The notes beneath the pieces were generated by a model, which saw only the letters and a list, made by a program, of their open reading frames with translations, had not been told where the DNA came from and did not search any database. Below are positions 1,500 to 42,608 of a stretch of 64,000 nucleotides of DNA, piece after piece; position 1 is the stretch's first letter, and every line of letters starts with the position of its first letter. The position numbers and the translations under genes are program-made. This DNA is from an uncultured Bacillota bacterium. Lineage in GTDB: Bacteria > Bacillota_I > Bacilli_A > RFN20 > CAG-826. The stretch spans positions 1 to 64,000 of the forward strand of contig CASFDV010000004.1 of NCBI GenBank assembly GCA_949293555.1. The letters run 5' to 3'.

Positions 1500-4481
1500 T
1501 CAGAGAGCCTCCTTGGTCAAGACGATCTCGTATTCCTCGGAGAAGTAGCCGCCGTCCACGACGCGGACGAAGGAAAGTCCTCCGAAGGACTCCCCTTCCC
1601 CGAGCAGGACGGACATCGTCTCCGGGCAAAGGGAGAGGTCTCCATCGCCAGCCTCAGTGACCTCGCCGAGGGAAAGGACAAGGCCCGAAAGAGTCGCCTT
1701 CCCGGAGTAGCTGAGGTCGATCTGGGTGACCTCAGGCTCAGCGCCCCAGCCAGAGGGGTCCTCGTAGGTCTCCGTCCCCTTGAGGGTGAGGGTAAAGTCG
1801 GCGACCCCCTCGGCGAACTCGCCGAAGGTGATCTCATAGGCGATATCAAAGGTAATCCCGGAGCCCCAGTCGCTCTCGCTGAAGGTGCCCTTCAAGGTCG
1901 CTCCGGAAAGCTCGGAGGACATGTCAGGGACGGCCTTGATCTCGATCGTGTGGGAGACGCTCTTGGAGGGATCCGCGTTCGCGGTCGCGGTGATCGTGAC
2001 CGTGCCCGGGACGTTTCCGGCCTTCAGGAACCAGCCGTCGCTATAGCCCCAGTCGTCGGTCTTCTCGTAGAGGGAGGCCTCCGTCGTCCCCTTGTCGATG
2101 GAATAGGTCACGCCCGTGTCGGCGATCCCTTCCGTCGGGGTGATCCTCGCGTCGATCTCGACCTCCTCCCCGACGTAGAGGGAGGAAGGAAGCTCGTCGT
2201 ACCAATAGACGGACTCGACCGGGCGGTCAACGACGCGGATCTTAATCGCGACGGGCTCCGCATCCTTCGTCTTGACCGTGATAGTCCCTTCCCCGGACTG
2301 GTAGGAGCGGAAGTAGTAGCCATCCGTCCCGTAGGACTCCGACACGGTGAAGCTCAGATCCTCGGACTCAAGGGAGAACTCCGGGACGTCGATCCCGGGA
2401 AGCGCGGTCCCGGGCTCGCCGTCCTCGAGGAAGAGGTAGATGGTCTCCGAGTTATACACCTCGTAGTAGCCATCCTCCCCGATGGCGATCCGCGAGCCTT
2501 CCAGGTCCTCGTCGTCCCGGAAGAGGCCGACGGAGAAGGAGTCGTAGAAGCAATCGTCGATGGAGAAGAGTCCGCTTTCGTCCACGCCCCGCTCGCCGCT
2601 TTCGGTGGACGCCGTCGCCCCTTCATAGGAATAGGGGGTGTCTTCAGTAATCGCCTCCGCCGTGGAGACGTCCTCGTAGTCGTAGCGGGAGTAGCTGGCC
2701 TCGTAGAGGCGCCCGTCGGTGTAGAAGTGAAGCTCCACGTCGATCACCGTGTAGCTCTCCCAGATGGAGTCGTCCCCGAACTCGAGGTGGATGGAGTAGC
2801 CGTCCCAGGTCTTCTCGACCTCCGCGGACTCGACGTACTCGTCCTGCTGGTAGTCCGTGTAGTCGAATATCGCGAGGGCCTTCTCCATGATGTAGCCGGA
2901 GACGCCTTCGTAGGACTCGCGCATGCCGTAGTCGCCTTCGATCTCGATCGCGCCCCAGGCGTTGACCTTCCTCTCGTATTCCTCGCGCGAGGAAGAGGGG
3001 ACCGCCTCGGGATCGTCGATCACCGAGAGGGCGCCCGTCCCGTCCTTATGGAGGGTGTAGTAGGTGTTATCGAGGATGCCGCGGTAGAAGTACTCGATCG
3101 CGCCGCCGTCGCTTCTCGCCGTGGTGATGGAGTGGCCGTCCTCGTAGGACTCGAAGGAGTAAGCGGTGCCGCTCGCCTTCTCCTCATCGGCGCCCTTGCT
3201 TTCGATGCGGATCTCCGAGCGGGGGCTGACCTCCGGCTCGACCTCGATCGCCGTCCTCATCGCGGAGTACACCTCGCGGAGCAGCGACTCGCTCTCGCTG
3301 ATGGGAACGATGGAGATCGTATCGTAGACCGAGTCGTTCCCTTCGACGGAGGCGGTGACCGTCACCCCCGACCCATAGGGGGCCAGGACGGTGAGGAGGC
3401 CGTTCTCGTCGACGGTAACGTACTCCTGGTCATAGGAGGGGACTTCCCAGCGGACAGGGGCGAAGGACCCTTCCGGCTCGTAGGAGACGGAAAGCTGGTA
3501 GCTCTCCCCCACCACCGCGAGGTAGCGATCGTAATAGGTGTAGTCCTCGTCGAGGACGAGTTCTTCCGCGGGAAGGATGCTGATCGCTTCCGCGGAGGGG
3601 ACGACCTCGACATGGACGAGGTTCATGCCCTCGATCGCGGGGAAGAGATACTCTCCGTCTGCCCCCTCGAGGGCGGTCCCGTTGAGGGTGACTCCCTTCA
3701 CCGTGAAGCCGGGGTCCGGAACGATGGAAAGGGCGATCTCCGTCCCTGCGGGGACGTACTCCCCTTCGTGAGCGATGGTCACTTCCGCGTGCTCGCCGCC
3801 GGAGAGGCGGATGAGCCCCTCCCCCGGACGGGCGATGGAGAAGGCGCCGCCGATGTAGTTCTTGCCCTTGACGACCTCGAACTCGTAGGTGCCCGTCGCG
3901 GGATCGAAGGGGACCTCCTCGCCGTTCAGGGTCAGGGAGGAAAGCTCATAGGTCTCGTCGACCGGGGTAGAGATGACCTTGATCTTCGTCCCCACTATCT
4001 GCCTGCGGTTGTCCCTTTCGATCAGGGTGTCCCCCGCATAGGCGGCAATCGTCCCGTTGGGGTCCTCGGAGGTCACGACGACGGAGCCGTACTCCGCGAC
4101 CGGGTCCTTCGCCTTGAAGGTCGCCCCGGCGACGTTCGGCCCTGCCTGGATGAGGAAGGTGTCGGAGGGAAGAGGCTCCCCGTTCAGGGTGTAGCCCTCG
4201 ACCTCGTAGCCTTCCTCCGGCTCCGCGAGGATCCTCACCTCCGTCCCCACCGGGAGCGCCCCGGTGCGGGAAAGGTGGACCTTCCCGTGAAGAATCCCCT
4301 CCGCGACGGACGGGGCATAGAGCTCCTCCGCCTGGGAAGAGCCGGTCGAAGAGCCGCTTTGGACGGACGAGCCCTCGGAGACGGATGCCGAGCCGCTATA
4401 AACAGGGGGGGTGCATCCGGCGAGCGCTAGCGCCGCGCCCAAGGCGAGAAGCGTCGCCTTGAATCTTTTCTTGGTGGCCAT
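1500..4481 (-). CDS. Large multi-domain surface lipoprotein with Ig-like and Flg_new-type repeats
   Basis: A 993-residue protein. The signal peptide ends in the lipobox LAGC (Cys23), followed by a Ser/Gly-rich linker, so it should be lipid-anchored on the outer face of the membrane. Residues of about 65-295 hold three tandem copies of a small beta repeat of the InlB/Flg_new kind (pattern: VPAGTEIALSIVPDPGF, then VTLNG). Two BIG2-like Ig domains follow, one near 305-395 and one near 710-810 (VESVYWYDELPSSLYVGEEV). A Tyr/Glu-rich domain of unknown type lies between them. AAGGAGG precedes the ATG at good spacing. It is the first gene of a two-gene unit with the secreted protein downstream. The architecture suggests adhesion or ligand binding; the ligand is unknown. 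Confidence 0.8.
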   Translation of the reverse strand: MATKKRFKATLLALGAALALAGCTPPVYSGSASVSEGSSVQSGSSTGSSQAEELYAPSVAEGILHGKVHLSRTGALPVGTEVRILAEPEEGYEVEGYTLNGEPLPSDTFLIQAGPNVAGATFKAKDPVAEYGSVVVTSEDPNGTIAAYAGDTLIERDNRRQIVGTKIKVISTPVDETYELSSLTLNGEEVPFDPATGTYEFEVVKGKNYIGGAFSIARPGEGLIRLSGGEHAEVTIAHEGEYVPAGTEIALSIVPDPGFTVKGVTLNGTALEGADGEYLFPAIEGMNLVHVEVVPSAEAISILPAEELVLDEDYTYYDRYLAVVGESYQLSVSYEPEGSFAPVRWEVPSYDQEYVTVDENGLLTVLAPYGSGVTVTASVEGNDSVYDTISIVPISESESLLREVYSAMRTAIEVEPEVSPRSEIRIESKGADEEKASGTAYSFESYEDGHSITTARSDGGAIEYFYRGILDNTYYTLHKDGTGALSVIDDPEAVPSSSREEYERKVNAWGAIEIEGDYGMRESYEGVSGYIMEKALAIFDYTDYQQDEYVESAEVEKTWDGYSIHLEFGDDSIWESYTVIDVELHFYTDGRLYEASYSRYDYEDVSTAEAITEDTPYSYEGATASTESGERGVDESGLFSIDDCFYDSFSVGLFRDDEDLEGSRIAIGEDGYYEVYNSETIYLFLEDGEPGTALPGIDVPEFSLESEDLSFTVSESYGTDGYYFRSYQSGEGTITVKTKDAEPVAIKIRVVDRPVESVYWYDELPSSLYVGEEVEIDARITPTEGIADTGVTYSIDKGTTEASLYEKTDDWGYSDGWFLKAGNVPGTVTITATANADPSKSVSHTIEIKAVPDMSSELSGATLKGTFSESDWGSGITFDIAYEITFGEFAEGVADFTLTLKGTETYEDPSGWGAEPEVTQIDLSYSGKATLSGLVLSLGEVTEAGDGDLSLCPETMSVLLGEGESFGGLSFVRVVDGGYFSEEYEIVLTKEAL

Positions 4482-4560
4482 AGTCGCCTCCTTGCAACCG
4501 CTTTACTTTACATGGGTTGCCTGCCAAGGCAATAAGGAGCGCATGTAAAAGAAATATCTG

Positions 4561-4586
4561 AAAAAGCCTCCCCTCTCGGGAAGGCT
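4561..4586 (-). terminator. tmRNA terminator
   Basis: On the minus strand, AGCCTTCCC and GGGGAGGCT pair around a GAGA loop and are followed by five T. It sits 11 bases downstream of the tmRNA CCA end. Confidence 0.85.
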
Positions 4587-4597
4587 CTCCGCGCGAG

Positions 4598-5002
4598 TGG
4601 TGGAGTCGAGGGGATTCGAACCCCTGTCCGAAGGATTCCAGGCGACGACTTCTACAGTTTAGGTCCTGCAGGTGTCGCCCCCGGTAAGGCAGAACCATTT
4701 CCCGGGGAGCCCAGGCCCTGAGGGTTTTCGTAGCCCGCCCCGGGCCGGAGGCAGGCTCTTATCGCCCCTGATGACGCCCTGCCCTCCCCCGGGACGCGAG
4801 GGGAGGAGGACGAGCCGGCCCTCCTTCATCATGAGGAGGGAATCCGTGGATTACCTAGTTAGGCCGCGGCGTAGGAGACGCGGGCAGAGCCCTGCCTCCA
4901 AACAGGATAGCTGTTGGCAGTTATCTTTGTGTCGACGTTAGGGCTCGTCACGCCACTGCGATCGAAGTCCGGATGATCCCCCGTCAAAGCCAGAACGACC
5001 CC
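4598..5002 (-). ncRNA. ssrA: Transfer-messenger RNA (tmRNA)
   Basis: The 3' end on the minus strand has a T-arm (GGTTCGAATCCC) followed by CGACTCCACCA with an encoded CCA. The 5' end GGGGTCG pairs with CGACTCC to rebuild the seven-bp acceptor stem. The text after it (TTTGACGGGGG) is the usual tmRNA 5' region. The length is 405 bases in one piece, not permuted. An internal tag frame ends in TAA at 4859-4861. The RNA rescues ribosomes stalled on broken mRNA together with SmpB, which is not in the window, and marks the peptide for proteolysis. Confidence 0.96.
4859..4918 (-). other. tmRNA tag-peptide reading frame
   Basis: The frame in phase with the terminal TAA starts at a GCC resume codon preceded by AAAGATAACT. 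It encodes ANSYPVWRQGSARVSYAAA (19 residues) and then TAA. The end resembles other tags in being Ala-rich and hydrophobic, but it is SYAAA rather than the common ALAA. The resume codon is inferred from position and context; the stop is certain. Confidence 0.7.
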
Positions 5003-5293
5003 ATGGGGCGTATCTCCATCGCGCCGGAAATACGTAGATATGATACGCCATCCATATCGCGGAAACTGCAAATTCTCGCTTTTCGCCGTAATGGGAAATG
5101 TTCAGGAAAAGGGACTAAAACGTTCGACAAAATCTTTTGGTTCCTATCTTTTCCAAGCAAAAGGGGGGGTGAAATTAGTCTACGAAACGTAGGCTTCGCA
5201 TCGGTTGATTGAATTTGCAAGAAATCAATAATCGCGCCCGTAAGCGGGGCGTTCGCATCGAAGCTCCGCGCTTGGGATTTCAGGAGGTAACGC
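5003..5293. promoter_or_regulatory. Divergent control region between tmRNA and the SipW-type operon
   Basis: No gene is seen. Two inverted repeats stand out before the plus-strand operon: CTACG-AAA-CGTAG at 5180-5192 and TTGATT (5205-5210) with AATCAA (5223-5228). The stretch from 5080 to 5230 is clearly more AT-rich than its surroundings and should hold the operon promoter, but I could not fix a confident -35/-10 pair. AGGAGG lies just upstream of the ATG at 5294. Confidence 0.4.
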
Positions 5294-5965
5294 ATGCACA
5301 AGAAATTCCTCACCTTCGCGCTTCCCGTCCTCGGGGCCGCGGCCATCGTCGGATCCGGCTTCTCCGCCTGGACGTTCACCAGCGACGCCCACGCCGCGGA
5401 CGGCATCACTGGCGACATCAGCGTCACCCCGCTCGTCGAGGGGATGAGCGTCGCGCTGAACGCCTCGACCTTCACCCTCACCCTCGACCAGGGCGGCGTC
5501 GGCAACACCAACGTTTCCGAGGGCATCACCTACAGCATCTCCTACGACACCGGGAACACCCTCACCGCCACCCTCACCTGGAAGGACTACGAGAAGCTTC
5601 TCGAGACCAACGACGTCACCATCAAATACTGGGTCGTTCTCGAGACCGAGGACGCCGCCGGCTCCAGCCTTGAAAACGCCGCCACCAACCTCACCAACTG
5701 GATCACCTGGAACGGCAGCTACAATGGAACGAGCAGCGCCGGGACCATCTCCAACAACGGCGGCAGCTACGCCACCAGCACCAGCGGCACCGACACCTAC
5801 GGCACCTGGACCATCGAGATCGGCTCGCTCGACAACATCATCTACACCACCAACAAGCCCGCCGGCGAGAGCGGACCCGCCTCCCACTCGGCCATGATGG
5901 CCGACCTCGACGGCAAGACCTTCAACCTCAACGTCTACTTCGACGCCGTGATCACCGCGAAGTAG
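5294..5965 (+). CDS. Secreted TasA/camelysin-like protein with SipW-type signal peptide
   Basis: A 223-residue protein. Its N-terminus has a short basic start (MHKK), a hydrophobic core and the signature GSGFSAWTF near residues 20-28, the kind of signal peptide cut by SipW in Bacillus (TasA, CalY). The mature part is very rich in Thr, Asn, Ser and Gly, with a beta-rich look and no cysteine. The size is close to that of TasA/CalY, but I cannot claim direct homology beyond the signal region. CAGGAGGTAACGC gives a strong Shine-Dalgarno. Codon use is extremely GC-ending, suggesting high expression. It is the first of four genes ending in a Ser/His signal peptidase. I infer a major extracellular or fibre subunit. 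Confidence 0.75.
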   Translation: MHKKFLTFALPVLGAAAIVGSGFSAWTFTSDAHAADGITGDISVTPLVEGMSVALNASTFTLTLDQGGVGNTNVSEGITYSISYDTGNTLTATLTWKDYEKLLETNDVTIKYWVVLETEDAAGSSLENAATNLTNWITWNGSYNGTSSAGTISNNGGSYATSTSGTDTYGTWTIEIGSLDNIIYTTNKPAGESGPASHSAMMADLDGKTFNLNVYFDAVITAK

Positions 5966-6002
5966 AGCGCCTAGCCTCTCTTCCTCCGACAACCGTCAGC
6001 CG

Positions 6003-6034
6003 AGCGACGGGGTGGGCTCTCCCGTCCCGTCGCT
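6003..6034 (+). repeat. Intercistronic hairpin
   Basis: AGCGACGGG (6003-6011) and CCCGTCGCT (6026-6034) form a perfect 9-bp stem without a following T-run. Lying between the first and second genes of the secretion operon, it may stabilise the upstream message or lower read-through. That would favour the first gene. Confidence 0.6.
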
Positions 6035-6058
6035 TGCTCATTCCAGGAGGGATGCGTT

Positions 6059-6727
6059 TTGCCCAAACTCTCGAGAATCGTCGCGTCCGTCGTGGTTCCC
6101 CTTTTGTCCTTCGGGGCGGTCGTGGGCACCGGGTTTTCGACGTGGACCTTCGATAGCGGCAGTCCTTCCCTCGGGCTAGGCGGTTCCATCAAGGTACGCG
6201 CCCGCGCGGAAATCGGCGAGCTCATCGTCAACGACATCCCTCATGTCGTCTACGGCTCGAACGGGTCCTCGGCCTCGATCCAGCTCTACGAGCACTACCG
6301 CCTCCTCATGAACGGGGAGGACGAGATGAGGCTCGAGTTCGCCCCAAGGAGCATCGACCTTACCTTCAAGGGCTATGCGATCGACGAGACGCTCTCCTAC
6401 GAGCTCAGCTGGTCGATGGAAGGCTTCCAGGCCGGCGAAGGCGGGGAAGCCGCGGAGGCGGAGTTCCTCAAGAGGATCCAGCTCCAGGAAAGCGAGGAGA
6501 CGGTCTCCTCCCTCTCCTTTTCCGCGACGAAGGCGATCATCCCCTCGGCCATCCTGGACGAGGGCAAGGAGAGCGTCATCACCTTTTCTCCCGTCTTCGA
6601 ATGGAAGGACGGGCAGGAGCCGACCAGCACCTACGAGTACTGGGCGCTGAGCGACCTCCTGAACGCGAGCCAGTTCTCGCTGACCGCGACGATCCGCTAC
6701 GCGGGGGAGGACTACCCCGATGCGTAG
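6059..6727 (+). CDS. Second secreted protein with SipW-type signal peptide
   Basis: A 222-residue protein starting with TTG. AGGAGG at 6045-6050 is well placed for that codon, and the ATG at 6052 is out of frame. Residues 5-30 form a hydrophobic segment ending in GTGFSTWTF, nearly the same signature as in the gene before it. The mature region is more acidic and Glu-rich than the first protein, with beta-like stretches, and is not obviously a paralogue of it. Its end overlaps the next gene by eight bases, so translation is probably coupled. I infer a minor component or assembly factor of the same extracellular structure, by analogy with TapA in Bacillus. The analogy is positional only. Confidence 0.7.
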   Translation: MPKLSRIVASVVVPLLSFGAVVGTGFSTWTFDSGSPSLGLGGSIKVRARAEIGELIVNDIPHVVYGSNGSSASIQLYEHYRLLMNGEDEMRLEFAPRSIDLTFKGYAIDETLSYELSWSMEGFQAGEGGEAAEAEFLKRIQLQESEETVSSLSFSATKAIIPSAILDEGKESVITFSPVFEWKDGQEPTSTYEYWALSDLLNASQFSLTATIRYAGEDYPDA

Positions 6728-9143
6728 GCACCTCTTCTCCCTCTTCGGAGGGATCGCGCTCCTGGCGACCCTCATCCCCGCGGGATCCGCCGCGTGGATG
6801 TTCGCCTACGACGAGGCCTCTGACAAGGCGGACGTCCTCGTCCAGGGCGACCCCATCCGCGACAACCACGTCCTCGGGGACGACAACGACCCCGATTACG
6901 CGGGGCAGACGTTCTACGACGTCTACTTCGCCGCCCAGGTGACGCCTGCGACAGACCAGATTTCAGATAAAAACGCAGGCAATCAGATCCTTTCCCATAA
7001 GCAGTCCTCGTTCTCGACGGATCGCCCTTGTTACGGAGGCGTAGACGCTGCCTCGGGCGAGAGTAAGCTCGGGCGATTCGAAAACCCTTCCGCCTCCGCT
7101 GGCGAAGGAACCGAATACTACCGGGTCTTCGCCGGGCGGACGTCCATCACCCATAACGAGCTCGAGGCCGTGAACCAAGCGTTCAAATCCGAAGTCATCG
7201 ACAGGACCACGTCTTCCGACGGAAGCACCTTCCCCCTCTCCCTCATCGGGTGGTCGCCGATGCTCGTCTGCAACTTCGCCGTAGCGGAAAGAAGCGTCTC
7301 ATCAGTGCAGGGCGCCCACGCCCACTGGCCGGAGCTTGATACCCTGAAGCTCAACACATATGGCGGTTCCAGTCACAATGGCTATATCCGCGTGGACGGC
7401 TACTATCCTAACGACTCCAGCCTCGTCCTTTTCTCCGCGAATAACCTTCTGGAAAACTACAGCGATTACGGCTATCTGAAAGATCTCGACGGGAACGGAA
7501 GGGCTGACATCGTCCTCTACCCCATCCTCAGCACCGGGAAGAACAACCACGCGGCCGACGTCGGGGAAACCCTGACAGACGCGATCGGCGTGGACCTCTT
7601 CCCTGGGAAAGATTCCAGCGGGAATGAAGTCGACATGGGCGGCCAGGGATCGAACGCGACCTACGACCCCCAGCTGAGCGCAAAGGTTGAAAAACATATC
7701 ACAGGCGGGACGAGGATCGAGGTGTTCCGCTACGAGAACGTGCTCTTTGAAGAAAATAGCGGATCTTCCCTTGGGTTTACCCTGGACCCGAACCGGTCAA
7801 ACAAAAACGGCTACGGCGTTGGTGCAGGGTGGCCGGGCACCGACGAAGGGGGGAGATGGGACGGTGATACGGAAACTCAAAAAACAGACGGACAAACAAA
7901 CGGAACCAGCAATGTTGATTCTGACGCTAGTACCAGGTTCTACATCACCAACCTTAGCCCAACAAACGACGACGACCCCTCGTCCATCTCAATCAAGAAC
8001 GTAAGCGCTGCTTCGGATAGCATCACCGCGATCAGCGGCCGTTACAACATCTATTTCGTGGATTTGGTAAACGACGACCAATGGATCGGCGAACTAAATG
8101 ACCAAGGTCCTTGGGGTGATGACTGGCTCACTTCATATACAGCAACAAACGGACTCGCGGGCAACGAAGATGGTATTGCCTCGGCGTTCTCGAATTATGG
8201 AATTACTCCCTATCAGATCCGGCTGATTCAACACACGAAGTTGGTGACTTCTCCAAGAAGAACCGACGAATATCACTGGAATGTGACATGGGACTATGAC
8301 TACTATGCCCAGACCCGTGCCCTCGCGATTGTCTTGGAGAGGGTGTACGAACCGCGCCTCGTCCTTGGGGATACAGGGTCGGCTAGCTTCAGCAACGGCA
8401 AGGCGTTCACCCAGGTCGCCGGCCCGACCCGGCACACTTACACCCTGATGAACGTGAACCTAGACGGAAATGCGGAATATTCCCTAGGGCCGGAATACGA
8501 AAACCTAAGGGTGACGAACGACATCTTCGCCATCATGCTCGCCAACCAAGAGGACTTCAGGACCTACAGGATGGAAGTCGGAGGGCAGGCAGGCCCCACG
8601 GGAAATGGCTACGACTACAGCGAATTCTCCGGGTCAAGCTTCTTCGAGACCACCGACGAATATGGGGTCGGGCTAGTCAGGCCCAAGGACGGCTTCGAAG
8701 GGTCCTACGATCTTCTCGTCACAGTCGAAATGACCGAGAGCTGGAACGGGACCGGGACCAACGCTCCTCAGACGGTAACGATCTACGGAAGGCGGAGGGC
8801 GGTCTACTACGTGAACGTCAGCACGTCCATCGCCATCGAGAACGCCCCCACTCACGCCTCCGGAAGCCTCGAGGGGTTCGTGGACACCAGCATCTACGAC
8901 TACCGCTTCGAGGCCTTCCAGCAAAGCGAGGCCCTGACACCGGAGACGAAGTTCGTCTCCATGGACGGCTCCGAGACGAAGACGTTCGCCGAGATCCTCC
9001 AGGAGGTCTACGGCTCCGGGGCCTACCTCCAGGACATCGCCACCGGAAGGATCTTCACCCCGATGGAGTTCTACGAGGGCTCGGGGGCGACCTACGAGCC
9101 CCAGGGCAGCATGGCCCTCTACCTATGGAAGCCAGGAAACTAA
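6720..9143 (+). CDS. Large secreted protein with SipW-type signal peptide
   Basis: An 807-residue protein. A hydrophobic N-terminus (about residues 5-25) ends in AGSAAWMF, matching the pattern of the two upstream gene products, followed by an acidic stretch. The long mature part has many Asp, Asn, Tyr, Gly and Ser residues and reads as a beta-rich extracellular protein. I recognise no catalytic motif and no C-terminal anchor (no LPXTG, no final membrane helix). The central third has markedly lower GC and more mixed codons than both ends. It overlaps the upstream gene by eight bases and is followed 22 bases later by the signal peptidase. It could be a tip or adhesin subunit; this is inferred from context. 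Confidence 0.7.
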   Translation: MRRHLFSLFGGIALLATLIPAGSAAWMFAYDEASDKADVLVQGDPIRDNHVLGDDNDPDYAGQTFYDVYFAAQVTPATDQISDKNAGNQILSHKQSSFSTDRPCYGGVDAASGESKLGRFENPSASAGEGTEYYRVFAGRTSITHNELEAVNQAFKSEVIDRTTSSDGSTFPLSLIGWSPMLVCNFAVAERSVSSVQGAHAHWPELDTLKLNTYGGSSHNGYIRVDGYYPNDSSLVLFSANNLLENYSDYGYLKDLDGNGRADIVLYPILSTGKNNHAADVGETLTDAIGVDLFPGKDSSGNEVDMGGQGSNATYDPQLSAKVEKHITGGTRIEVFRYENVLFEENSGSSLGFTLDPNRSNKNGYGVGAGWPGTDEGGRWDGDTETQKTDGQTNGTSNVDSDASTRFYITNLSPTNDDDPSSISIKNVSAASDSITAISGRYNIYFVDLVNDDQWIGELNDQGPWGDDWLTSYTATNGLAGNEDGIASAFSNYGITPYQIRLIQHTKLVTSPRRTDEYHWNVTWDYDYYAQTRALAIVLERVYEPRLVLGDTGSASFSNGKAFTQVAGPTRHTYTLMNVNLDGNAEYSLGPEYENLRVTNDIFAIMLANQEDFRTYRMEVGGQAGPTGNGYDYSEFSGSSFFETTDEYGVGLVRPKDGFEGSYDLLVTVEMTESWNGTGTNAPQTVTIYGRRRAVYYVNVSTSIAIENAPTHASGSLEGFVDTSIYDYRFEAFQQSEALTPETKFVSMDGSETKTFAEILQEVYGSGAYLQDIATGRIFTPMEFYEGSGATYEPQGSMALYLWKPGN

Positions 9144-9165
9144 AGGGAACAGGAGGAAGACAAGG

Positions 9166-10158
9166 ATGCTCACACTCGCGATGAACCGCATCGAAGCGAC
9201 CTCGATGGTCGTCTCCATCGTCGTCATCTTCTTCCTGACCCTCGCCTTCGGGATCCTCTTCTACCTGTATTACCGCTACTACAGGAAATGCGTGGACGGC
9301 TCCCTCGAGGACTCCTACATCAAGAAGGAAGTCATCAAGGAGAACCCCCGCTACTTCAGGCACGTGGACGAGGTCGTCCAGGACGAGAACATGACCCTTG
9401 AGGAGAAGTACGAGGCGATCCCTGCCCTCGAGGAGCACGTCAAGGGCGTCATGAAGCGCAAGAACGGCCTCAAGATCCTCGCCAACACGGTCCTCGTGAT
9501 CGTCTACCTCCTCTGCCTCTCCGTCCTTGCCTTCGCCGCCTATTCCCGCGCCTCGGGCGAGACCTTCCTCTTCGGGGACACGACCTGCCTCATCATCCGC
9601 ACCGGGTCGATGGAGGAAGACAACAAGAGCAACTCCTACCTCGTCGAGAACAACCTGACCGAGGACATCCCCGCGATGGCCCTGGTCGGGCTCGACAAGG
9701 TGTCTTCCCCTGAGGACATGGAGCTATACGGCATCTACGCCTTCCAGGGCGAGGACAGGATCCTCGTCCACCGCCTCATCTCCATCCAGGAGACTGAGGA
9801 GGGCGATCTCTACACCTTCCGCGGGGACGCGAACTCCGCGAGCCTCGTCGAGGAGGTGGACGTCCCCTTTGAGAAGATCGTCGGGGTATATAACGGCTTC
9901 CAGAACGTCGGCCTCGGCATGACGATCGGCTACCTCCAGAGCGACATCGGCATCATCGCGGTCTGCTTCGGGCTCGTGCTGGTGGGATGCTACGACATCT
10001 TCGAGATCTCGCTTGGGAAAAGGATCGAGGCGAGGAAGAAGGTCCTCTACCCCATCATCGACGGGGAGACGAAGCACCACGTCATGGAAGGGCACCGCCA
10101 GCTGGTCAAGCGCCTCCTCGCCGAGGAGAGGGCCCCTCTGGAAGAGCCCAGGGAATAA
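9166..10158 (+). CDS. SipW-type (ER-like, Ser/His) signal peptidase I with extra membrane segment
   Basis: A 330-residue signal peptidase of the S26B kind. The serine box is RTGSME (Ser148). The base is a histidine in ILVHRLISI (His202) where the common bacterial enzyme has lysine, and the third box is GDANSA (220-225). The Ser/His arrangement is typical of SipW and the eukaryotic and archaeal enzymes. Unlike the roughly 190-residue Bacillus SipW, it has an additional N-terminal membrane helix (about 13-37), a charged cytoplasmic stretch (40-100), a second helix (103-126) and a C-terminal helix (about 256-275) with a basic tail. It is the last gene of the operon. The three preceding proteins with GSGFSAWTF-like signals are its probable substrates. 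Confidence 0.88.
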   Translation: MLTLAMNRIEATSMVVSIVVIFFLTLAFGILFYLYYRYYRKCVDGSLEDSYIKKEVIKENPRYFRHVDEVVQDENMTLEEKYEAIPALEEHVKGVMKRKNGLKILANTVLVIVYLLCLSVLAFAAYSRASGETFLFGDTTCLIIRTGSMEEDNKSNSYLVENNLTEDIPAMALVGLDKVSSPEDMELYGIYAFQGEDRILVHRLISIQETEEGDLYTFRGDANSASLVEEVDVPFEKIVGVYNGFQNVGLGMTIGYLQSDIGIIAVCFGLVLVGCYDIFEISLGKRIEARKKVLYPIIDGETKHHVMEGHRQLVKRLLAEERAPLEEPRE

Positions 10159-10177
10159 GGGAGCCCCCTGTTCCCCC

Positions 10178-10197
10178 AGCCCCGCAAGGGGCTTTTT
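10178..10197 (+). terminator. Terminator of the SipW-type operon
   Basis: AGCCCC-GCAA-GGGGCT followed by TTTTT, 20 bases after the signal peptidase stop. It closes the four-gene operon. Confidence 0.85.
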
Positions 10198-10740
10198 CAT
10201 AACGCCCCCCATCTTCACGAACGCCCTTGGAAATCATCCGTGCTTTCCGACTGTTTCACGGGGTTCATATGCAAAAACCCCGATGGCGACTTTCTCCCGC
10301 CAAAACGCCATCCAGCAATCTAGTCAGACGGGCGGCTCCCGTTTCGCGGAGTCGCGCAAAAAAGATAAAGAGGCATTGCTTCGAGCAGGAGAACGGATAG
10401 GCACGAGGCAGCCGCCAGATCCTTTCCGAACCAGAGGGGATAAAGGCCTTGGCGTCGAACAGCGGTCCCCTGGGGTTGCTTCGTATGGAGAGGGACAAGA
10501 AGGCGTTCTGTTTCTAGTTAGTTTCTTTACATAGCGCGCTTGCATGGCCCGCGCTTTGAACGCGTTTCACGGGCTGGAAATAGAAAAGCACCGATAAAAC
10601 CGGACTTCCCCATTTCATGCACATGTCCAATCTCTATCGAAACGGACCCATTTCATGGAGTCCTTCAAAGAAGGTATCGATGTAGGTCCCAAAGACTCCC
10701 GACCCCCCTAGAAGCGGCTCCTTGGATTCCTTGGCAAAGG
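10198..10740. other. Long intergenic region without recognised gene
   Basis: About 540 bases without a frame I would defend. GC is lower than in the genes around it. Visible structure: an inverted repeat GATGGCG (10282-10288) and CGCCATC (10306-10312), and two copies of CCATTTCATG near 10610 and 10648. Short frames on both strands have odd composition and no start signals. It may contain remnants of a decayed gene or an unrecognised RNA. Confidence 0.4.
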
Positions 10741-10764
10741 AAAAGCGCTCCCTCCCGGAAGCGC
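10741..10764 (-). terminator. Terminator of the following minus-strand membrane-protein gene
   Basis: On the minus strand, GCGCTTCC and GGGAGCGC pair around a short loop and are followed by TTTTCCTTT. It is 25 bases beyond the stop of the 389-residue membrane protein. Confidence 0.75.
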
Positions 10765-10788
10765 CTTCCCTTGTCCCCCGTGAGGGGA

Positions 10789-11958
10789 CTAGCCCTGGGC
10801 GATCGGCCCCCGCATCGTCTTGAAGATGGTGTAGATGACGCGGACGGCGAGCACCATCATGAAGATGGTCATCCCCATCACGTAGTTGGAGCCGCCGAAG
10901 ACGAAGCCGAGGATCATCGCGATCACCGCGCAGGTGAAGGACTCGAAGTAGACGGCCTGCTGGGCGTCCCAGAAGTTGAGGGGGCGGTAGGGGTTGTTCT
11001 TCCCTCTCGTGGCAAGGAAGACGATGAGGCCCATGATGAAGATGGTGCCCGTGACGATCGCGGCGATGATGCCGACGTTCGTCCAGCCGGCGTTCCATTT
11101 CGTCGAGGCATAGGCGAGGTCGAGGAAACGCCCCCACGCCTGGCGGGAGGCCTCGCGGTACTCGTAGGAGTCCGGGAGAGGGGCTTCCCCTTCGAAGGTC
11201 GGCGTGAGAAGGCTCACGAGGGTCTTGCCCTTGAACTCCTCGCTGTCCCAGTAGTAGCGGATGCTGGTCTCCGCCTTCTGGCCGTCGGAATCGACGAGGT
11301 TCGGCATGATGGTGAGGATGAAGCCGTCGGAATCAAGGAAGAGGGAGTTCACCGAGTAGGCGTCCTCCCCGTTGGGGTCCTTGCTGTTCTCGTCGGTGAC
11401 GACGAACTCATAGAAGTCGGTGACGGAGGGGTAGAGGCCGTCGTAGTCGTAGTAGACGGCGAAGTCGACGATCGTCTCCTCGACGAGCTCGGGCTTGGAT
11501 CCGACGACCTGGCTCGAGGAGGAGTCGGTCTCCACCGGGAGCTTGGGCACCTCGCGCACGACCGTGTGGTAGTAGGCGCCGAGGTCGTTCGCGCCGTAGG
11601 CCTTCTCCCAGGAGCCGTTCTCGTCGGAGAGGATCCCGTCCTTGTCGATCGAAAGGAGGATCCCCTTCTCCTCCATGTCGCGGACGAAGGCGGCGGTCGG
11701 GGCGACGAGCCCGAGGTCCTGGCCCGTGATGAAGCTCGAGGCGCTGACGTTGCCCATCGCCACCGCGGTCGGGATGATCGCGATGATGATCGAAAGGATC
11801 ACCACGGGGAGAGAGGCCCACCAGGGCTTCCCCCTTGCCAAAAGGCAGGCGCCGTTGCTCCAGAGGGTCTGGAGCCAGTAGCGGAACCCGCTCCAGAGCC
11901 TGGCCCAGAAGGGATGCGCCTTCTTCGGTGCCTTCTTGCCGTTCTTCTTGTTCGCCAT
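10789..11958 (-). CDS. Multi-pass membrane protein with large external domain
   Basis: A 389-residue protein. A basic cytoplasmic N-terminus (MANKKNGKKAPKK) leads to one membrane helix at about 48-68. An acidic external domain of some 220 residues follows, and then three hydrophobic segments between about 290 and 380. The arrangement (one helix, outside domain, helix cluster) resembles the DUF1189 family of Bacilli, but I rate that match as weak. It is transcribed alone, with its own terminator and a gap of about 100 bases to the next gene upstream. No catalytic motif is seen and the function is unknown. Confidence 0.65.
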   Translation of the reverse strand: MANKKNGKKAPKKAHPFWARLWSGFRYWLQTLWSNGACLLARGKPWWASLPVVILSIIIAIIPTAVAMGNVSASSFITGQDLGLVAPTAAFVRDMEEKGILLSIDKDGILSDENGSWEKAYGANDLGAYYHTVVREVPKLPVETDSSSSQVVGSKPELVEETIVDFAVYYDYDGLYPSVTDFYEFVVTDENSKDPNGEDAYSVNSLFLDSDGFILTIMPNLVDSDGQKAETSIRYYWDSEEFKGKTLVSLLTPTFEGEAPLPDSYEYREASRQAWGRFLDLAYASTKWNAGWTNVGIIAAIVTGTIFIMGLIVFLATRGKNNPYRPLNFWDAQQAVYFESFTCAVIAMILGFVFGGSNYVMGMTIFMMVLAVRVIYTIFKTMRGPIAQG

Positions 11959-34295: not shown

Positions 34296-34301
34296 ATTAT
34301 A
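34296..34301 (-). promoter_or_regulatory. -10 box of the SRP RNA gene
   Basis: TATAAT read on the minus strand, seven bases before the paired 5' end of the RNA, consistent with the predicted start. The -35 lies in the serS end and is not well conserved. Confidence 0.6.
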
Positions 34302-34306
34302 GCGGA

Positions 34307-35590
34307 TTACTTCCTCGGGAGAATCCTTTCCTGCCCGCCCATGTAGGGACGGAGCGCCTCGGGGATGAGGATGGAGCCGTCTTCCTGCTGGCACTGCTCG
34401 AGAAGGGCGGGGAACACCCGCGAGGTGGCAAGGCCCGACCCGTTCAGCGTGTGGCAGAAATGGATCTTGCCCTCGGCGTCCCGGTAGCGGACCATCCCGC
34501 GCCTGGCCTGGTAGTCCCGCGCGTTGGAGACGCTGCTGACTTCCTTGTAGATTCCCATCGAGGGGATCCACACCTCGATGTCGTAGGTCCTTGCCATCGA
34601 GTGGGAGCAGTCCCCGGCGGCGAGCTTGTCCAGGCGGTAGCAAAGCCCAAGCCCCTGGAGGAGCTCCTCGGCCTTCCTCACCATCTCGTCGAAGGCGACG
34701 TCGCTCTTGTCGTCCTCCGTGTACTGGACCATCTCGACCTTGTTGAACTGGTAGCCGCGGATCATGCCGCGCTCCTCGGTGCGGTAGCTTCCGGCCTCCT
34801 TCCGGTAGCAGGGGGTGTAGGCGAAGTACTTCCTCGGCAAGTCGTCGAGGGAAAGGATCTCGTTCCGATGGAGGTTGACGAGGGCCGTCTCCGCGGTCGG
34901 GAGGAGGAACTTCCGGGGCTCCATGCCTTCCATGTAGAACACCTCGTCCTTGAACTTGGGGAACTGGCCCGAGGTATAGCCGCTCTCGACGTTCAGGAGA
35001 TGGGGCGGAAGGATGAAGGTGTAGCCGTCCCGGAGGTGGGCGGCGATGAAGTAGTTGAGAAGCGCCCACTCGAGCCTCGCCCCGTCCCCGACGTATATCC
35101 ATGTCCCGGAGCCCGAGATCTTCGCCGCCCTGCGGTAGTCGATGATCCCGAGGTTCTCCGCAAGGGTCACGTGGTCCTTAGGCTGGAAGGGGAAGGAAGG
35201 TTTCTCGCCCCACTCGCGGACCGGCTGGTTGTTCTCCTTCCCGCCGGAAAGGAGGTCGGGGTCGGGAAGGTTCGGCAGGACCTCGATCGCCTTCTGGATC
35301 CCTTCCTCGACTTCCTTCAGCTCGGCTTCTCTGTCCTTGTTCTCCTGGGCAAGGCGCTTAACCTCGCGGAAGATGGGCGAGGGGTCCTCGCCCGCCTTCT
35401 TCATCGCCGGGACCTTGGCTGTCAGGCGGTTCTGCTCCGCCTTGCTCGCCTCGACGGCGTGCAGGAGCTCCCTCCTCCGGCGGAACATCCCGAGCACCGG
35501 CTCGGGATCGAAGTCCCACCCTTTCTTAAGGAGCGCGTCCCTGACGTAGCCAGGCTTCTCTTCGATCAGCTTCCAATCGATCATGGTCAT
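34307..35590 (-). CDS. serS: Seryl-tRNA synthetase
   Basis: 427 residues. An N-terminal helical arm that binds the tRNA-Ser long variable arm (about 1-110) precedes the class II catalytic core. Motif 2 is PCYRKEAGSYRTEERGMIRG and the later conserved stretch is EVSSVSNARDYQARR. It charges tRNA-Ser and tRNA-Sec with serine. The start overlaps the glycosyltransferase stop by four bases. No T-box leader is seen. Confidence 0.98.
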   Translation of the reverse strand: MTMIDWKLIEEKPGYVRDALLKKGWDFDPEPVLGMFRRRRELLHAVEASKAEQNRLTAKVPAMKKAGEDPSPIFREVKRLAQENKDREAELKEVEEGIQKAIEVLPNLPDPDLLSGGKENNQPVREWGEKPSFPFQPKDHVTLAENLGIIDYRRAAKISGSGTWIYVGDGARLEWALLNYFIAAHLRDGYTFILPPHLLNVESGYTSGQFPKFKDEVFYMEGMEPRKFLLPTAETALVNLHRNEILSLDDLPRKYFAYTPCYRKEAGSYRTEERGMIRGYQFNKVEMVQYTEDDKSDVAFDEMVRKAEELLQGLGLCYRLDKLAAGDCSHSMARTYDIEVWIPSMGIYKEVSSVSNARDYQARRGMVRYRDAEGKIHFCHTLNGSGLATSRVFPALLEQCQQEDGSILIPEALRPYMGGQERILPRK

Positions 35591-36594
35591 TCCTCCCCGG
35601 CGATCTGCCGGTAGCGCATGAGGAGCCGCTTCCCTAGGTCAAGGAGCGACTCCACGCGGGCGAGCCGGTAAGCCAGCTCGACAAGGGAATCATAGTCCCC
35701 GGCAAGGCGCGATTCGACCGCCTTGATGAGCGCGGGCGGGGTCTCCGCGAGAATCGCGTTCTCACCCGGGCGGAACTGGGTCCCGTAGCCCGGGTCCTTA
35801 TAAAGGAAGATCGGGGTCTTGGACGCCATCGCCTCAAGAGCGAGGATCCGCGGGGCCTCGCCCATGAAAAGGGCGAAGGAGGCGGAGCGAAGGAGGCTCC
35901 GGAAGACGTCGTCCTCGAGGATCGCCTCGAAGCGCATGTTCTTCGGACCCCTTCGGGAAATGCGCCTCCTCCTCGAGCTCATGAAAGCCCGATGCTTCTC
36001 GTATCCGATGAAAATCAGACGAAACGACAGGAGATTGCTGGCGATTTCTTCTAGAGTCTTGAATATCTTGCCGTTCTCGTAGTCGCCGAAGACGACGGCG
36101 ACCTTCTCTCCGTCCCGGATGTTGAAGTATTGGCGGAACACGTCCCTTTCCACAGGGTCGAGACCCTCGAAGCGGGACACGTTCACGCCCGGGGAAAGGA
36201 TCTCGATCTTCGAAGAGGGGATCCCGGAGTCGACGAGGACGCCCTTCTCCTTGAGCCCGGGGACGAAGACGGCGTCCGCATGGCGGAGCATCCGCAGCGC
36301 CCGGGGCTTGACCGGACGGAAGCCGTCCTCCTCCTTGTCGCCAAGATAGGAGGCGGAAGGCTCCCCCTCCGCGTAAAGGGCGCTCACGACGACCTTCGCG
36401 CCGTACTCCCGCGCCTTCTCGAGGAAGGGGCCGTCCTCCGGCGAGATCAAATGGACGATGGAGGGACTGGCGTCGAGGCTGTCGACGAGCTGCGCATCGG
36501 TGCTCTCGAGGGCGCCCTTTACGTTCTTCCTGAGACGCACGGCGAGGTAGGGGGGCTCCCCCTTCCCCGCCTGGTAGCGAACCAGCGCCTTCAC
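35587..36594 (-). CDS. GT-B fold (GT4-like) glycosyltransferase
   Basis: 335 residues without a membrane helix. The linker has ILSPGVNVSRFEGLD, the usual hinge of GT4 enzymes, and the donor site contains EAPRILALEAMASKTPIFLY, matching the Ex7E motif (E-x7-E) that holds the nucleotide sugar. The acceptor domain is short, so the enzyme is below the typical 370-400 residues. A lipid or surface polymer acceptor is likely, but the sugar cannot be assigned. It begins three bases after gyrA and overlaps serS, so it lies inside the core transcription unit. Confidence 0.75.
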   Translation of the reverse strand: MKALVRYQAGKGEPPYLAVRLRKNVKGALESTDAQLVDSLDASPSIVHLISPEDGPFLEKAREYGAKVVVSALYAEGEPSASYLGDKEEDGFRPVKPRALRMLRHADAVFVPGLKEKGVLVDSGIPSSKIEILSPGVNVSRFEGLDPVERDVFRQYFNIRDGEKVAVVFGDYENGKIFKTLEEIASNLLSFRLIFIGYEKHRAFMSSRRRRISRRGPKNMRFEAILEDDVFRSLLRSASFALFMGEAPRILALEAMASKTPIFLYKDPGYGTQFRPGENAILAETPPALIKAVESRLAGDYDSLVELAYRLARVESLLDLGKRLLMRYRQIAGEE

Positions 36595-36597
36595 GCG

Positions 36598-39255
36598 CTA
36601 CTCCACCTCGTCCGGGGTCGGGTTATGGACAGGGGCCTCCGGCGCCTCTTCCTCAGGGGCGAGGGAGGGGTTCACCTCGTCCTCGGCCTCCTCCCCTTCC
36701 TCGTCAAGGGGCTTCTCCTGGTGAGGGAGGATCGCGATCGAGGCGACCTTCTGCCTGCCCTCGAGACGGATGATGATGACGCCCTGGGTGTTCCGCCCGC
36801 AAACCTTGACCTGGTCGAGAGGCGTGCGGATGACGATGCCGCTGGTGGTGATGACCATGAGGTCCTCGTCCCCCTTGACGGCCCTCATCGCGGCAAGCTC
36901 GCCGTTCTTCGCGCTCATCTTGAGGGAAAGCACGCCCTTGGAGCCGCGGCTCGTCAGGCGGTAGCCGTCGTAGTGGTGGGTGTTCCCGTCCTCGTCGGTG
37001 ACGGTGGTGTCCTTCGCGTAGCTGATCTTGCCGAAGCCGCGGGTGGTCAGGACGAGGATCTTGTCGCCCTCGAGCGAGGTTGTGAGGTCGATGGCCTGCT
37101 CCTCGCCCTCGAGGCGGATGCCGCGGACGCCGCTGGCGGTCCTGCTCATCGGGCGGATCTCATCCTCGCGGAAGGAGCAGACGCGGCCGGAGGAGGAGGC
37201 GATCGAGACGATCGCGCTGCCGTCGGTGCGCTTCACCCCGAGGAGGGAATCCCCTTCGCGGAGGACGAGCGCCCGCTTTCCGTTCACGTTGATGTTGCTG
37301 AACTCCGAGATCGGCGTCCTCTTGGCAAGGCCCCTCGTCGTGCAGAAGAGGAGGTATTCGCCCTCCGGGTAGTCGTCGCAGGGCACGATCGAGACGACCT
37401 GCTCGCCCTCCTCGAGGCGGAGGAGGTTGACCGCGGGGATGCCCTTCGAGTCGCGGGCGCCGTCCGGAAGCATGTAGCCGCGGATCCGGTACACCTTCCC
37501 GAGGCTCGAGAAGAAGAGGAGGTCGGTGTGGGTGCGGGCGTGGATGACGATGTTGGCGACGTCGCCGGCCACCATGCGGATGCCGGTCACGCCCCTCCCG
37601 CCCCGGTTCTGGGTGCGGAAGGTGTCGTCGTCCATCCTCTTCACGTAGCCGTTCTTCGTCAGGATGATGACGATTTCCTTTTCGGGAATGAGGGATTCCG
37701 AGTCGATCGAGGCGGCTTCGTCGCTGATCTCGGTGAGGCGACGGTCGCCGTACTTCCGCTTGATCTCGAGAAGCTCCTGGATCATGAGGTCGATGATGTT
37801 CGCCTGGTCGCTGAGGAGCCGGCGGTACTCGGCGATGTTCCTCATGAGCTCGTCCAGCTCCTGGTGGAGCTTCCCTTGCTCGAGGCCCTGGAGGCGGCGG
37901 AGGGTCATCGCGAGGATGGCCTGGCACTGGTCGTCGGAAAGGGAGAAGCGTGCCTTGAGCTTCGCGGTGCTCTCCTCGTCGCTCTGGGAGCTGCGGATGA
38001 GGGCGATGACCTCGTCGATGTTGTCGTGGGCGAGGATGAGGCCCTCGAGGATGTGGCTCCTCCTGAGGTCGCGGTTGAGGCGGAACCTGGTCCTCCTGGT
38101 CAGCACCTCGACCTGGAAGTCGATGTAGTTCTGGAGCATCTCCTTCATGCCGAGGGTCTTCGGCTCGCCGTTGACGAGGCAGAGGTTGATGACACCGAAG
38201 TTGACCTGGAGCTGGGAGTGCTTGAGGAGGTTGTTGCAGACGACCTCGGGGACGAAGCCGTGCTTGACGTCTATGACGACGCGGATCCCCTCCTTGTTGC
38301 TCTCGTCGCGGAGGTCGCTGATGCCGTCGACGACCTTGTCGCGGACGAGCTGGGCGATGCCCTCCACCATCGTGGCCTTGTTCACCTGGTAGGGGATCTC
38401 GGTGACGATGATGCGGGAGCGCCCGCCGGAAAGCTCCTCGATCTTGTAGCGCGAGCGGATGGAGACGGTGCCCACGCCCGTCTGGAAGTAGTCGCGGATC
38501 CCTCCGCGCCCGAGGATGACCCCTCCGGTCGGGAAGTCGGGGCCGTGGAGGTGGCGCGCCATGATGTCGAGGACGTCCATCCCGGGGTCCTTGGCAAGGG
38601 CGCAGATCGCGTCGATCGTCTCCGAAAGGTTGTGGGAGGGCATGTTGGTGGCCATGCCGACCGCGATTCCTTCCGAGCCGTTCACAATGAGGTTGGGGAA
38701 GCGCGAGGGAAGCACGGTCGGCTCCTTCTCGGTGCCGTCGTAGTTGTCCGCCCAGTCGACCGTCTCCTCGTCGAGCCCGTCGACCATCTCGACGGCGAGC
38801 TTCGCCATCCTGGCCTCGGTGTAACGCATGGCGGCGGCCTCGTCCCCGTCGATGGAGCCGAAGTTCCCGTGCCCGTCCACAAGGGGGTAGCGGAGCGAGA
38901 ACTCCTGGGCAAGGCGCACGAGCGTCATGTAGATCGCCGAGTCGCCATGCGGGTGGAAGCGGCCCATGACGTCGCCGACGACCTTCGCGGACTTCTTGTA
39001 GGGCTTCCCGGGCGTCATGCCCATCAGCTGCATCCCGTAGATGACGCGGCGCTGGACGGGCTTGAGGCCGTCGCGGACGTCCGGGATCGCGCGGGCGGTG
39101 ATGACCGACATCGAGTAGGCGAGGAAGGCGGAACGCACCTCGTTGACGATCTCGCGGTCGGTGAGCCCGGACTCGATGCCCGCCCTGGGCGCCTCCTCTT
39201 GCTCGTTCCCGGAGGGGGAACCCTGCAGATCGGGCTTCTTTTCTTCGTTATCCAT
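36598..39255 (-). CDS. gyrA: DNA gyrase subunit A
   Basis: 885 residues. The breakage-reunion domain has the QRRVIYGM start and the catalytic tyrosine in AMRYTEARM; the quinolone-resistance region reads HPHGDSAIY. The C-terminal half has six beta-pinwheel blades, including the gyrase box QNRGGRG, which marks GyrA rather than ParC. It introduces negative supercoils with GyrB. An acidic, Pro-rich tail follows. AGGAGG lies before the ATG, 12 bases after gyrB. Confidence 0.97.
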   Translation of the reverse strand: MDNEEKKPDLQGSPSGNEQEEAPRAGIESGLTDREIVNEVRSAFLAYSMSVITARAIPDVRDGLKPVQRRVIYGMQLMGMTPGKPYKKSAKVVGDVMGRFHPHGDSAIYMTLVRLAQEFSLRYPLVDGHGNFGSIDGDEAAAMRYTEARMAKLAVEMVDGLDEETVDWADNYDGTEKEPTVLPSRFPNLIVNGSEGIAVGMATNMPSHNLSETIDAICALAKDPGMDVLDIMARHLHGPDFPTGGVILGRGGIRDYFQTGVGTVSIRSRYKIEELSGGRSRIIVTEIPYQVNKATMVEGIAQLVRDKVVDGISDLRDESNKEGIRVVIDVKHGFVPEVVCNNLLKHSQLQVNFGVINLCLVNGEPKTLGMKEMLQNYIDFQVEVLTRRTRFRLNRDLRRSHILEGLILAHDNIDEVIALIRSSQSDEESTAKLKARFSLSDDQCQAILAMTLRRLQGLEQGKLHQELDELMRNIAEYRRLLSDQANIIDLMIQELLEIKRKYGDRRLTEISDEAASIDSESLIPEKEIVIILTKNGYVKRMDDDTFRTQNRGGRGVTGIRMVAGDVANIVIHARTHTDLLFFSSLGKVYRIRGYMLPDGARDSKGIPAVNLLRLEEGEQVVSIVPCDDYPEGEYLLFCTTRGLAKRTPISEFSNINVNGKRALVLREGDSLLGVKRTDGSAIVSIASSSGRVCSFREDEIRPMSRTASGVRGIRLEGEEQAIDLTTSLEGDKILVLTTRGFGKISYAKDTTVTDEDGNTHHYDGYRLTSRGSKGVLSLKMSAKNGELAAMRAVKGDEDLMVITTSGIVIRTPLDQVKVCGRNTQGVIIIRLEGRQKVASIAILPHQEKPLDEEGEEAEDEVNPSLAPEEEAPEAPVHNPTPDEVE

Positions 39256-39267
39256 GGATTGCTCCTC

Positions 39268-41307: not shown

Positions 41308-41309
41308 GC

Positions 41310-42368
41310 TCATTCCTCCGAGTCATTCGTTCCGATATGGATGTGGCGCGCTCCCGCAACATGCGAGGTCGTACCGGTGATGAAGCTTTGCCCGAGCCTA
41401 GGGAGGAGGGCGACGAGGCGCCTCCTTCTCTCCTGGTCCAGCTCCCCGAAGACGTCGTCCAATAGTACGACGGGCCTCGCCGCCCCCTTCGGGATCAGGG
41501 CGGGGGCCAGGCGGAGGGCGAGGGCGAGGGCCCTGCTTTCCCCCTGGGAGGCATAGGAGGCCGCCTCGCGGCCGTCCAGGCTGACGAGGAGGTCGTCCCT
41601 CTGGGGCCCGGACTGCGTGCTCCCGAGCGCGAGGTCCCTCTCCTTCTGCGAGAGGTGGAGCGCCAGGGCCCTTCTCGCGAAGCCTTCCCCGGGCTCAAGG
41701 AAGCGCTTCAGGCGGACCTTGGGGTCGCGCCCTTGGCCGAGGAGCGCCTCCGAGAGCTTCCCGAACGCCTTCTCAAGGCGCCGGAGGAAGCGGTCCCGCA
41801 GATCCTCGACCCTTTCCTCTTCCGCGACCAGACGCTCCGTCAGCGTCTCCAGGAGCGGCCCCCATTTGCCTTTTTTGAGGGCGCGGTTCCGTTCCTCCAG
41901 GAGGTGGCGGAAGCGCCCGTAGGCAAGGAGGTAGTCGCCAGAGAGGCGGGAGAGCGACTCGTCGAGGAAGGCCCTCCTCCCCGAAGGGGGTCCCCGGAAG
42001 AGGGAGACGTCCTCGGGCGTGAAGCGGACGGCGGAGAAGGCGCCCCTCAGGTCCGAGAGCCGCGCGAGCGGCTTTCCGTCCAGGAGCACGGCGCGCCCTC
42101 CGTCGCGGAAGGAGACCTCGATCCTGCGGAGGACGCCGTCCTCCTCGACCTCGCCCCGGACGTAGGCCTCGCTTTCGCCTTCCTGGACGACCTCCTCGAC
42201 GTCGGAGGTCCGCCAGCTGCGGCCGAGGGAGAGGAAGTCAATCGCCTCGAGGACGTTCGTCTTCCCGGCCCCGTTCGGGCCGACGAGCTCGTTCGCCCCG
42301 AGGGAGGGGGCGAGAAGGAGCTTGCGATGGTTGCGGAAGCGGAGGAGCGTGAGGGAGCGAAGGATCAT
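41310..42368 (-). CDS. recF: DNA replication and repair protein RecF
   Basis: 352 residues of the SMC-like ABC ATPase family. Walker A is GPNGAGKTNVLEAI, the signature is near SQGESRALALALRLA, and Walker B is PVVLLDDVFGELD. RecF loads RecA at gaps with RecO and RecR. The start overlaps the S4-domain gene by four bases. Order dnaN-S4-recF-gyrB is standard. Confidence 0.96.
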   Translation of the reverse strand: MILRSLTLLRFRNHRKLLLAPSLGANELVGPNGAGKTNVLEAIDFLSLGRSWRTSDVEEVVQEGESEAYVRGEVEEDGVLRRIEVSFRDGGRAVLLDGKPLARLSDLRGAFSAVRFTPEDVSLFRGPPSGRRAFLDESLSRLSGDYLLAYGRFRHLLEERNRALKKGKWGPLLETLTERLVAEEERVEDLRDRFLRRLEKAFGKLSEALLGQGRDPKVRLKRFLEPGEGFARRALALHLSQKERDLALGSTQSGPQRDDLLVSLDGREAASYASQGESRALALALRLAPALIPKGAARPVVLLDDVFGELDQERRRRLVALLPRLGQSFITGTTSHVAGARHIHIGTNDSEE

Positions 42369-42607
42369 TCCCCTTCCTCGGGAACCAGGCGCAGGAGGCG
42401 CCCTCCGGCAAGGAGGGTGTCCCCGGGGAAGAGCTTCCTGCCCCTCCGGGTTTCCGCCTCGCCGTTCACGAGCGCCTTCCCCTCGGCAAGGAAGGGCTTG
42501 GCCATCGCCCCCTCGTCGATGAGGCCCGCGTACTTCAGCAGCTGCCCCAGGGTGATGTAGGGGGTGCGGATGGCGATCGTCTCTTCTTTTGGCTCCACGT
42601 GAGGCAT
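42365..42607 (-). CDS. S4-domain RNA-binding protein (YaaA/RlbA family)
   Basis: 80 residues with a single S4-like fold: ITLGQLLKYAGLIDEGAMAK, LVNGEAETRRGRKL and GD. The small protein always found between dnaN and recF in Bacillota; related proteins act in ribosome assembly. Normal members are about 70 residues. The ATG lacks a Shine-Dalgarno; TACTAT is eight bases upstream within an inverted repeat, so the transcript from that point would be leaderless. It overlaps recF by four bases. Confidence 0.92.
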   Translation of the reverse strand: MPHVEPKEETIAIRTPYITLGQLLKYAGLIDEGAMAKPFLAEGKALVNGEAETRRGRKLFPGDTLLAGGRLLRLVPEEGE

Positions 42608-42608
42608 T

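Follow-up and report, generated by a model that had tools for sequence, protein, structure and literature searches.

Four co-directional genes on the + strand fill positions 5294-10158 of the window, the 64,000-nucleotide stretch analysed here, which belongs to contig 4 of a 1.34-Mb genome (97% complete, 6 contigs, GC ~60%). P1 (5294..5965) encodes a small leader-bearing protein of 223 aa, predicted to fold as an Ig-like β-sandwich, and P2 (6059..6727), read from a TTG start behind an AGGAGGG box, encodes its 222-aa paralogue. P3 (6720..9143) encodes a multidomain, predicted β-rich protein of 807 aa from an unnamed family with members of ~700-1000 aa, and the last gene (9166..10158) encodes a SipW-type (ER-type) signal peptidase of 330 aa. 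P2 and P3 overlap by 8 bp, and a gap of 22 bp separates P3 from the peptidase gene. A terminator-like stem followed by TTTTTC (10178..10193, +), a consensus match only, would mark the operon end; a promoter scan returned one weak site, no more than in shuffled sequences. The open reading frames, the leader motifs GSGFSAWTF, GTGFSTWTF and AGSAAWMF, and the Ser148/His202 peptidase described in the initial annotation are all present as claimed. Upstream and divergent from the operon, positions 1500-4481 (-) encode a 993-aa lipoprotein-like protein with InlB B-repeat-like (Flg_new_2) and Big_2 domains. Elsewhere in the window, the genes at ~34300-45400 (-) look by eye like a dnaA-dnaN-recF-gyrB-gyrA-serS cluster, which would place the window near the replication origin.

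Each of the three client proteins carries a SipW-type motif at the end of its leader: GFSAWTF in P1 (5357..5377, +), with the predicted cut GFS^AW, GFSTWTF in P2 (6131..6151, +), and GSAAWMF in P3 (6783..6803, +). The DNA pattern for GxxxWxF matches the genome 17 times, compared with 9 for a reversed control pattern, and only the P1, P2, and P3 genes of the 1.34-Mb genome have it closing an N-terminal hydrophobic leader. A leader rule, x-x-small^x-aromatic-x-[FYWLM], is followed by 49/51 P1, 37/37 P2, and 34/35 P3 homologues gathered, and offers a simple way to find more SipW clients. The P1 leader consensus is G-[FY]-[SA]^[AT]-W-x-F. We infer the cut position in P1-P3 from sequence; as placed, it puts an aromatic residue at the P2 and P2' positions of the leader, as in TasA (T-W-A^A-F). 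The model of the SipW-cognate signal peptide, TIGR04088, has no match in the genome at E <= 1 and detects its B. subtilis control, and the P1-P3 leader is best classed as a variant of the SipW-cognate type, G-[FY]-[SA]-[AT]-W-x-F. The aromatic P2/P2' residues in TasA have been reported to hinder E. coli LepB (PMC10269814). Poor cutting of the P1-P3 leaders by a general signal peptidase is expected because aromatic residues flank the site, and cleavage by that enzyme appears unlikely judging from the leaders.

The peptidase places Ser148 in GS148M (9607-9609), His202 in VH202R (9769-9771), and Asp221 in GD221AN (9826-9828). These three residues are invariant across 22 aligned peptidases and form a Ser-His-Asp site, not Ser-Lys. 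The peptidase profile shows similarity to the ER-type family (SEC11C, 2.4e-7; SEC11A, 6.7e-7). NF046067, the Bacillus SipW model, aligns from residue 103 onward with 42.6 bits and E 4.6e-11, below its curated cut-off of 190 bits, which marks the protein as a divergent SipW-type enzyme and not a Bacillus SipW equivalog. Hydrophobic segments span residues 14-32, 104-122, and 261-279. Residues 1-102, comprising the extra segment 14-32 and a charged stretch, are conserved in relatives of the same type; together with the start of the NF046067 alignment at 103, this bears out the extra N-terminal part that had been noticed on first reading. Among named records, the nearest are "uncultured Firmicutes bacterium" bin.70 (peptidase 97% identical) and "uncultured Bacilli bacterium" E20 bin183 (89%).

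The locus had been called self-contained, a description that calls for some caution: elsewhere, the genome encodes two further SipW-like peptidases (C1:203559 and C2:415569, each adjoining its own leader-bearing clients) and one general signal peptidase I. The second SipW-type locus (L034, G000:C1:195000-212000, at 2785-11176) combines a SipW with an N-terminal extension and two clients (FSAWIL, GATWIIG) with an AAA ATPase-like protein, an ABC transporter, and further genes, a layout similar to that in G007 (L053). The third enzyme (L035, G000:C2:408000-424000, at 6578-8169) has 214 aa, is without the N-terminal extension, and lies beside a client whose leader is GTSFALYK. In low- and mid-GC relatives, SipW carries a C-terminal tail of 150-700 residues (L085:10187-12541, L086:4627-7668, L089:10601-13294, L038:10298-12256, and L040:9712-11232). 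A conserved stretch of ~100 residues in the tail is common to L038, L040, L042, and L049; five tails tested gave no Pfam match over the cut-off.

Among 61 genomes searched, full-length relatives of the peptidase occur in 12/37 of those from the genus, and several further families of the order have them as well. Searched independently with the P3 profile, 37/279 genomes of the order contain P3, and within the genus P3 and SipW of the locus type occupy exactly the same 12/37 genomes. Where genomes were chosen only for the peptidase, 18/19 carry P3 at the locus, the exception being G053 (L051); P3 in L032 and L093 was missed by the gene caller, yet is present. In a phylum-wide sample of 392 genomes, P3 was confined to the order. 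The four-gene set, the conservation of which the initial annotation had left to a survey of relatives, recurs in dozens of genomes of the order with GC contents of 24-61%: about a dozen relatives keep the window's order, P1-P2-P3-SipW, and others have the genes rearranged (P2-P3-SipW-P1 x N; P1-SipW-P2-P3). In a peptidase tree, biased because loci were added for having P3, the P3-linked enzymes separate from both other types encoded in that genome, on a branch with 93/95 support that the program marks as open.

With leaders removed, P1 and P2 align along their mature regions (hhalign 97.5-98%, E 7e-12 to 7e-14), and both families keep an LDQGG-like motif and a KPT motif, identifying the two proteins as paralogues. 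The earlier description of three unrelated clients is wrong, since P1 and P2 are homologous and only P3 is a separate family. The AlphaFold2 model of P1, built from 31 sequences, is a β-sandwich with a mean pLDDT of 72.6 (80-90 in the core) and a poorly placed, low-confidence N-terminal strand at residues 30-37. Foldseek returned nothing significant for this model. By VIA-align, the best match is the Ig-like AGS-C domain (Z 7.2), followed by T4 gp9, MATH domains, and nanobodies; Ig-like domains score Z 5-7 and sortase-type pilin domains about 4-4.5. TasA is not among the best 50 fold matches listed for P1, which proves nothing. Profile searches of P1 and P2 against all PDB sequences gave nothing credible. 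Relatives carry 1-5 P1-type copies per locus.

Between P1 and P2, a hairpin is predicted at 5998..6055 (+), with a folding energy of -41.1 kcal/mol (z -2.6); its outer stem takes up the P2 ribosome-binding site. The same arrangement occurs in two close relatives (z -2.8, -4.8), and a strong hairpin at this position is also present in L089 (z -4.8); most AT-rich relatives are without one. Pairing of the P2 ribosome-binding site would leave P1 more abundant than P2 and P3, as a major subunit should be, and it is possible that the hairpin lowers P2 and P3 relative to P1.

P3 shares only its leader with P1 and P2 in profile comparison. Behind this leader, at residue 44 of the window protein, lies a D-x-I-R-x-N motif, with the family form D-x-[IV]-x-x-N. 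A pattern count finds this form in 25/27 P3 proteins, two of these 25 hits (L046 and L085) being off-register; in the alignment, most members carry the motif or a close variant. The P3 profile retrieved nothing credible from all PDB sequences, and scans of P1-P3 against Pfam, NCBIfam, and PHROGs assigned no family. P3 is accordingly classed as a separate conserved family without a sequence match or a clear fold match. In one relative, a 1057-aa protein with the leader end AAAWYF (L047, 66-3239, -), encoded a few kb downstream of the SipW locus, is possibly a further large client.

A TasA/CalY identity, which the initial annotation had proposed to check by profile, was not borne out: PF12389 (TasA/CalY, camelysin) matches neither the window proteins nor 31 P1 and 27 P3 relatives, and nothing in the whole genome, while its B. 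subtilis control is detected. Nor did the mature proteins fall into unrelated families with other roles; they match nothing at all, including the NCBIfam models of SipW clients. The P1 profile aligns with TasA only through the leader (E 9e-5), and leaderless P1 reaches E 0.2 over 20 columns by hhalign; the TasA query was compared with 8aur and agrees at every residue of the mature chain. A TasA search of plasmids and 392 same-phylum genomes gave 0 matches and is uninformative, since these sets hold no positive control. With no PF12389 match in its mature proteins, the locus resembles the TasA system in layout, TasA-family membership finds no support from sequence, and the Ig-like β-sandwich modelled for P1 has no specific fold match.

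Like the B. subtilis tapA-sipW-tasA operon, the locus combines a dedicated ER-type signal peptidase with co-encoded small β-sandwich clients that carry aromatic residues around the leader cut, and its leader aligns with that of TasA. It differs in its mature P1 and P2, which have no detectable TasA homology, in the lack of a sortase in the genome, in the additional 700-1000-aa client P3, and in the ~100-residue N-terminal extension of the peptidase. The B. cereus sipW-calY/tasA-capP locus (PMC13082335) likewise encodes two paralogous small subunits and a third protein, all SipW clients and sortase-independent; its CapP contains a DUF4047 domain and QKKV/AEE repeats, whereas P3 has no Pfam match and is predicted to be β-rich. 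The C. perfringens sipW-bsaABCRSD operon (PMC7395162) also unites SipW with several secreted proteins, of which BsaA polymerises without sortase, and has a predicted terminator after its major-subunit gene, to which the hairpin downstream of P1 can be compared; unlike the locus here, it has its own two-component system. Archaeal bundling pili, which are TasA-related (cited in PMC9674648 and PMC10151520), share the working principle of a donor-strand fibre built from β-sandwich subunits. Searches of the open-licence literature yielded no description of such a locus from these bacteria.

We consider it reasonably probable that the genes form an operon for a surface fibre that works in the SipW/TasA manner, independently of sortase and probably by donor-strand assembly, with P1 as the major subunit, P2 as a minor or initiator subunit, and P3 as a tip, base, or adhesin. 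The fibre is our best guess by analogy with SipW-TasA/TapA, CalY/CapP, and BsaA; SipW processing, the fibre itself, and the subunit roles are what we infer from co-occurrence, homology, and the TasA/TapA/BsaA/CalY-CapP literature. Sec would export P1, P2, and P3, and the SipW of the locus would remove their leaders, expected to be poor substrates for the general signal peptidase. Freed P1 would polymerise, probably by giving its new N-terminal strand to the next subunit, as TasA does, and the low-confidence strand 30-37 in the P1 model is suggestive of such donor-strand assembly. P2, in low amount, would start or cap the polymer like TapA or a second camelysin, and P3, the largest client, would sit at the tip or base and contact a target or the cell surface. 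To our knowledge, SipW substrates elsewhere need not all polymerise. The SipW-dependent proteins TasA (PMC9674648), TapA (PMC10151520), BsaA (PMC7395162), and TasA-CalY-CapP (PMC13082335) all belong to fibre systems. Points against a fibre are the lack of detectable sequence homology to TasA/CalY, the lack of a clear fold match to any pilin or TasA, and the fact that no characterised fibre system considered has a P3 counterpart.

The cell envelope bears on where such a polymer would sit and on an alternative to it. Sortase (PF04203) was not found in the genome, with three positive controls detected, and the C-termini of P1-P3 contain neither LPXTG nor a hydrophobic anchor. MraY (TIGR00445) was likewise not found, its positive controls being detected; this one marker suggests a peptidoglycan-deficient host cell and, as a single missing wall marker, does not prove wall loss. 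A survey predicts peptidoglycan-deficient families among related uncultured orders, including some families of the uncultured order RFN20, and RFN20 to be without sortases (PMC10868615). Since neither sortase nor MraY was found, sortase anchoring to a wall is not expected for a fibre, which may be carried by a peptidoglycan-deficient cell. The same two absences, the survey, and a P1 copy number that can be high would also fit a non-fibrous, S-layer-like coat or sheet of P1 and P2, with P3 as spacer or anchor, that replaces wall functions in such a cell. We regard this coat as unlikely: the studied SipW client systems (TasA, TapA, BsaA, CalY-CapP) make fibres, and an essential coat would sit poorly with a presence as patchy as 37/279 genomes of the order.

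The P3 fold raises a further alternative, a cell-surface glycan-binding complex that forms no polymer, in which P3 would be a carbohydrate-binding adhesin with a SusE/X25-like domain and P1 and P2 its small partners. Structure prediction of the 807-residue protein, suggested in the initial annotation, yielded a multidomain, β-rich model (27 sequences; pLDDT 68, pTM 0.68) but no clear fold match. Among its best fold matches, residues 543-693 resemble starch-related SusE (Z 8.0, rmsd 2.9, 102 aligned), which is not above background, as the fold-search tool itself gives a Z near 8 as the usual best for models without clear matches; the same residues match X25-2 of Sca5 at Z 4.8. The glycan-binding complex has no sequence support, its SusE/X25-like domain covers only a fifth of P3, and we hold it to be improbable. 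It is very improbable that the SipW-type enzyme only duplicates the general signal peptidase and that the leader motif carries no special meaning, for although the LepB-type signal peptidase I at G000:C2:265720 could in principle cut the leaders, the genome thereby already has a separate general enzyme, the motif is confined to three genes beside the SipW, and P3 and SipW co-occur strictly.

Returning to the SipW-processed fibre, the initial annotation had set P3 and the peptidase extension outside the Bacillus system, and neither was matched in any known system considered. They leave, as a tentative and somewhat doubtful possibility, that the locus builds a surface organelle of a class of its own in sortase-free, peptidoglycan-deficient Bacilli: a fibre or coat processed by SipW, with P3 as a new family of giant subunits, attached by means other than a wall anchor and put together at a site that includes the extended peptidase. 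On present evidence, the locus is real and conserved: a variant, as yet unnamed, of the SipW-type fibre systems that brings one new protein family (P3) and a possibly unusual cellular setting, and is not categorically new. It brings to light a conserved large-subunit family and an extension of the peptidase that the studied systems considered do not have. If the fibre reading is true, SipW-type fibres would extend from walled Bacillus and Clostridium to small-genome, probably wall-less, sortase-free uncultured Bacilli, and the fibre would be a prime candidate for the adhesion of these cells to hosts, food particles, or each other.
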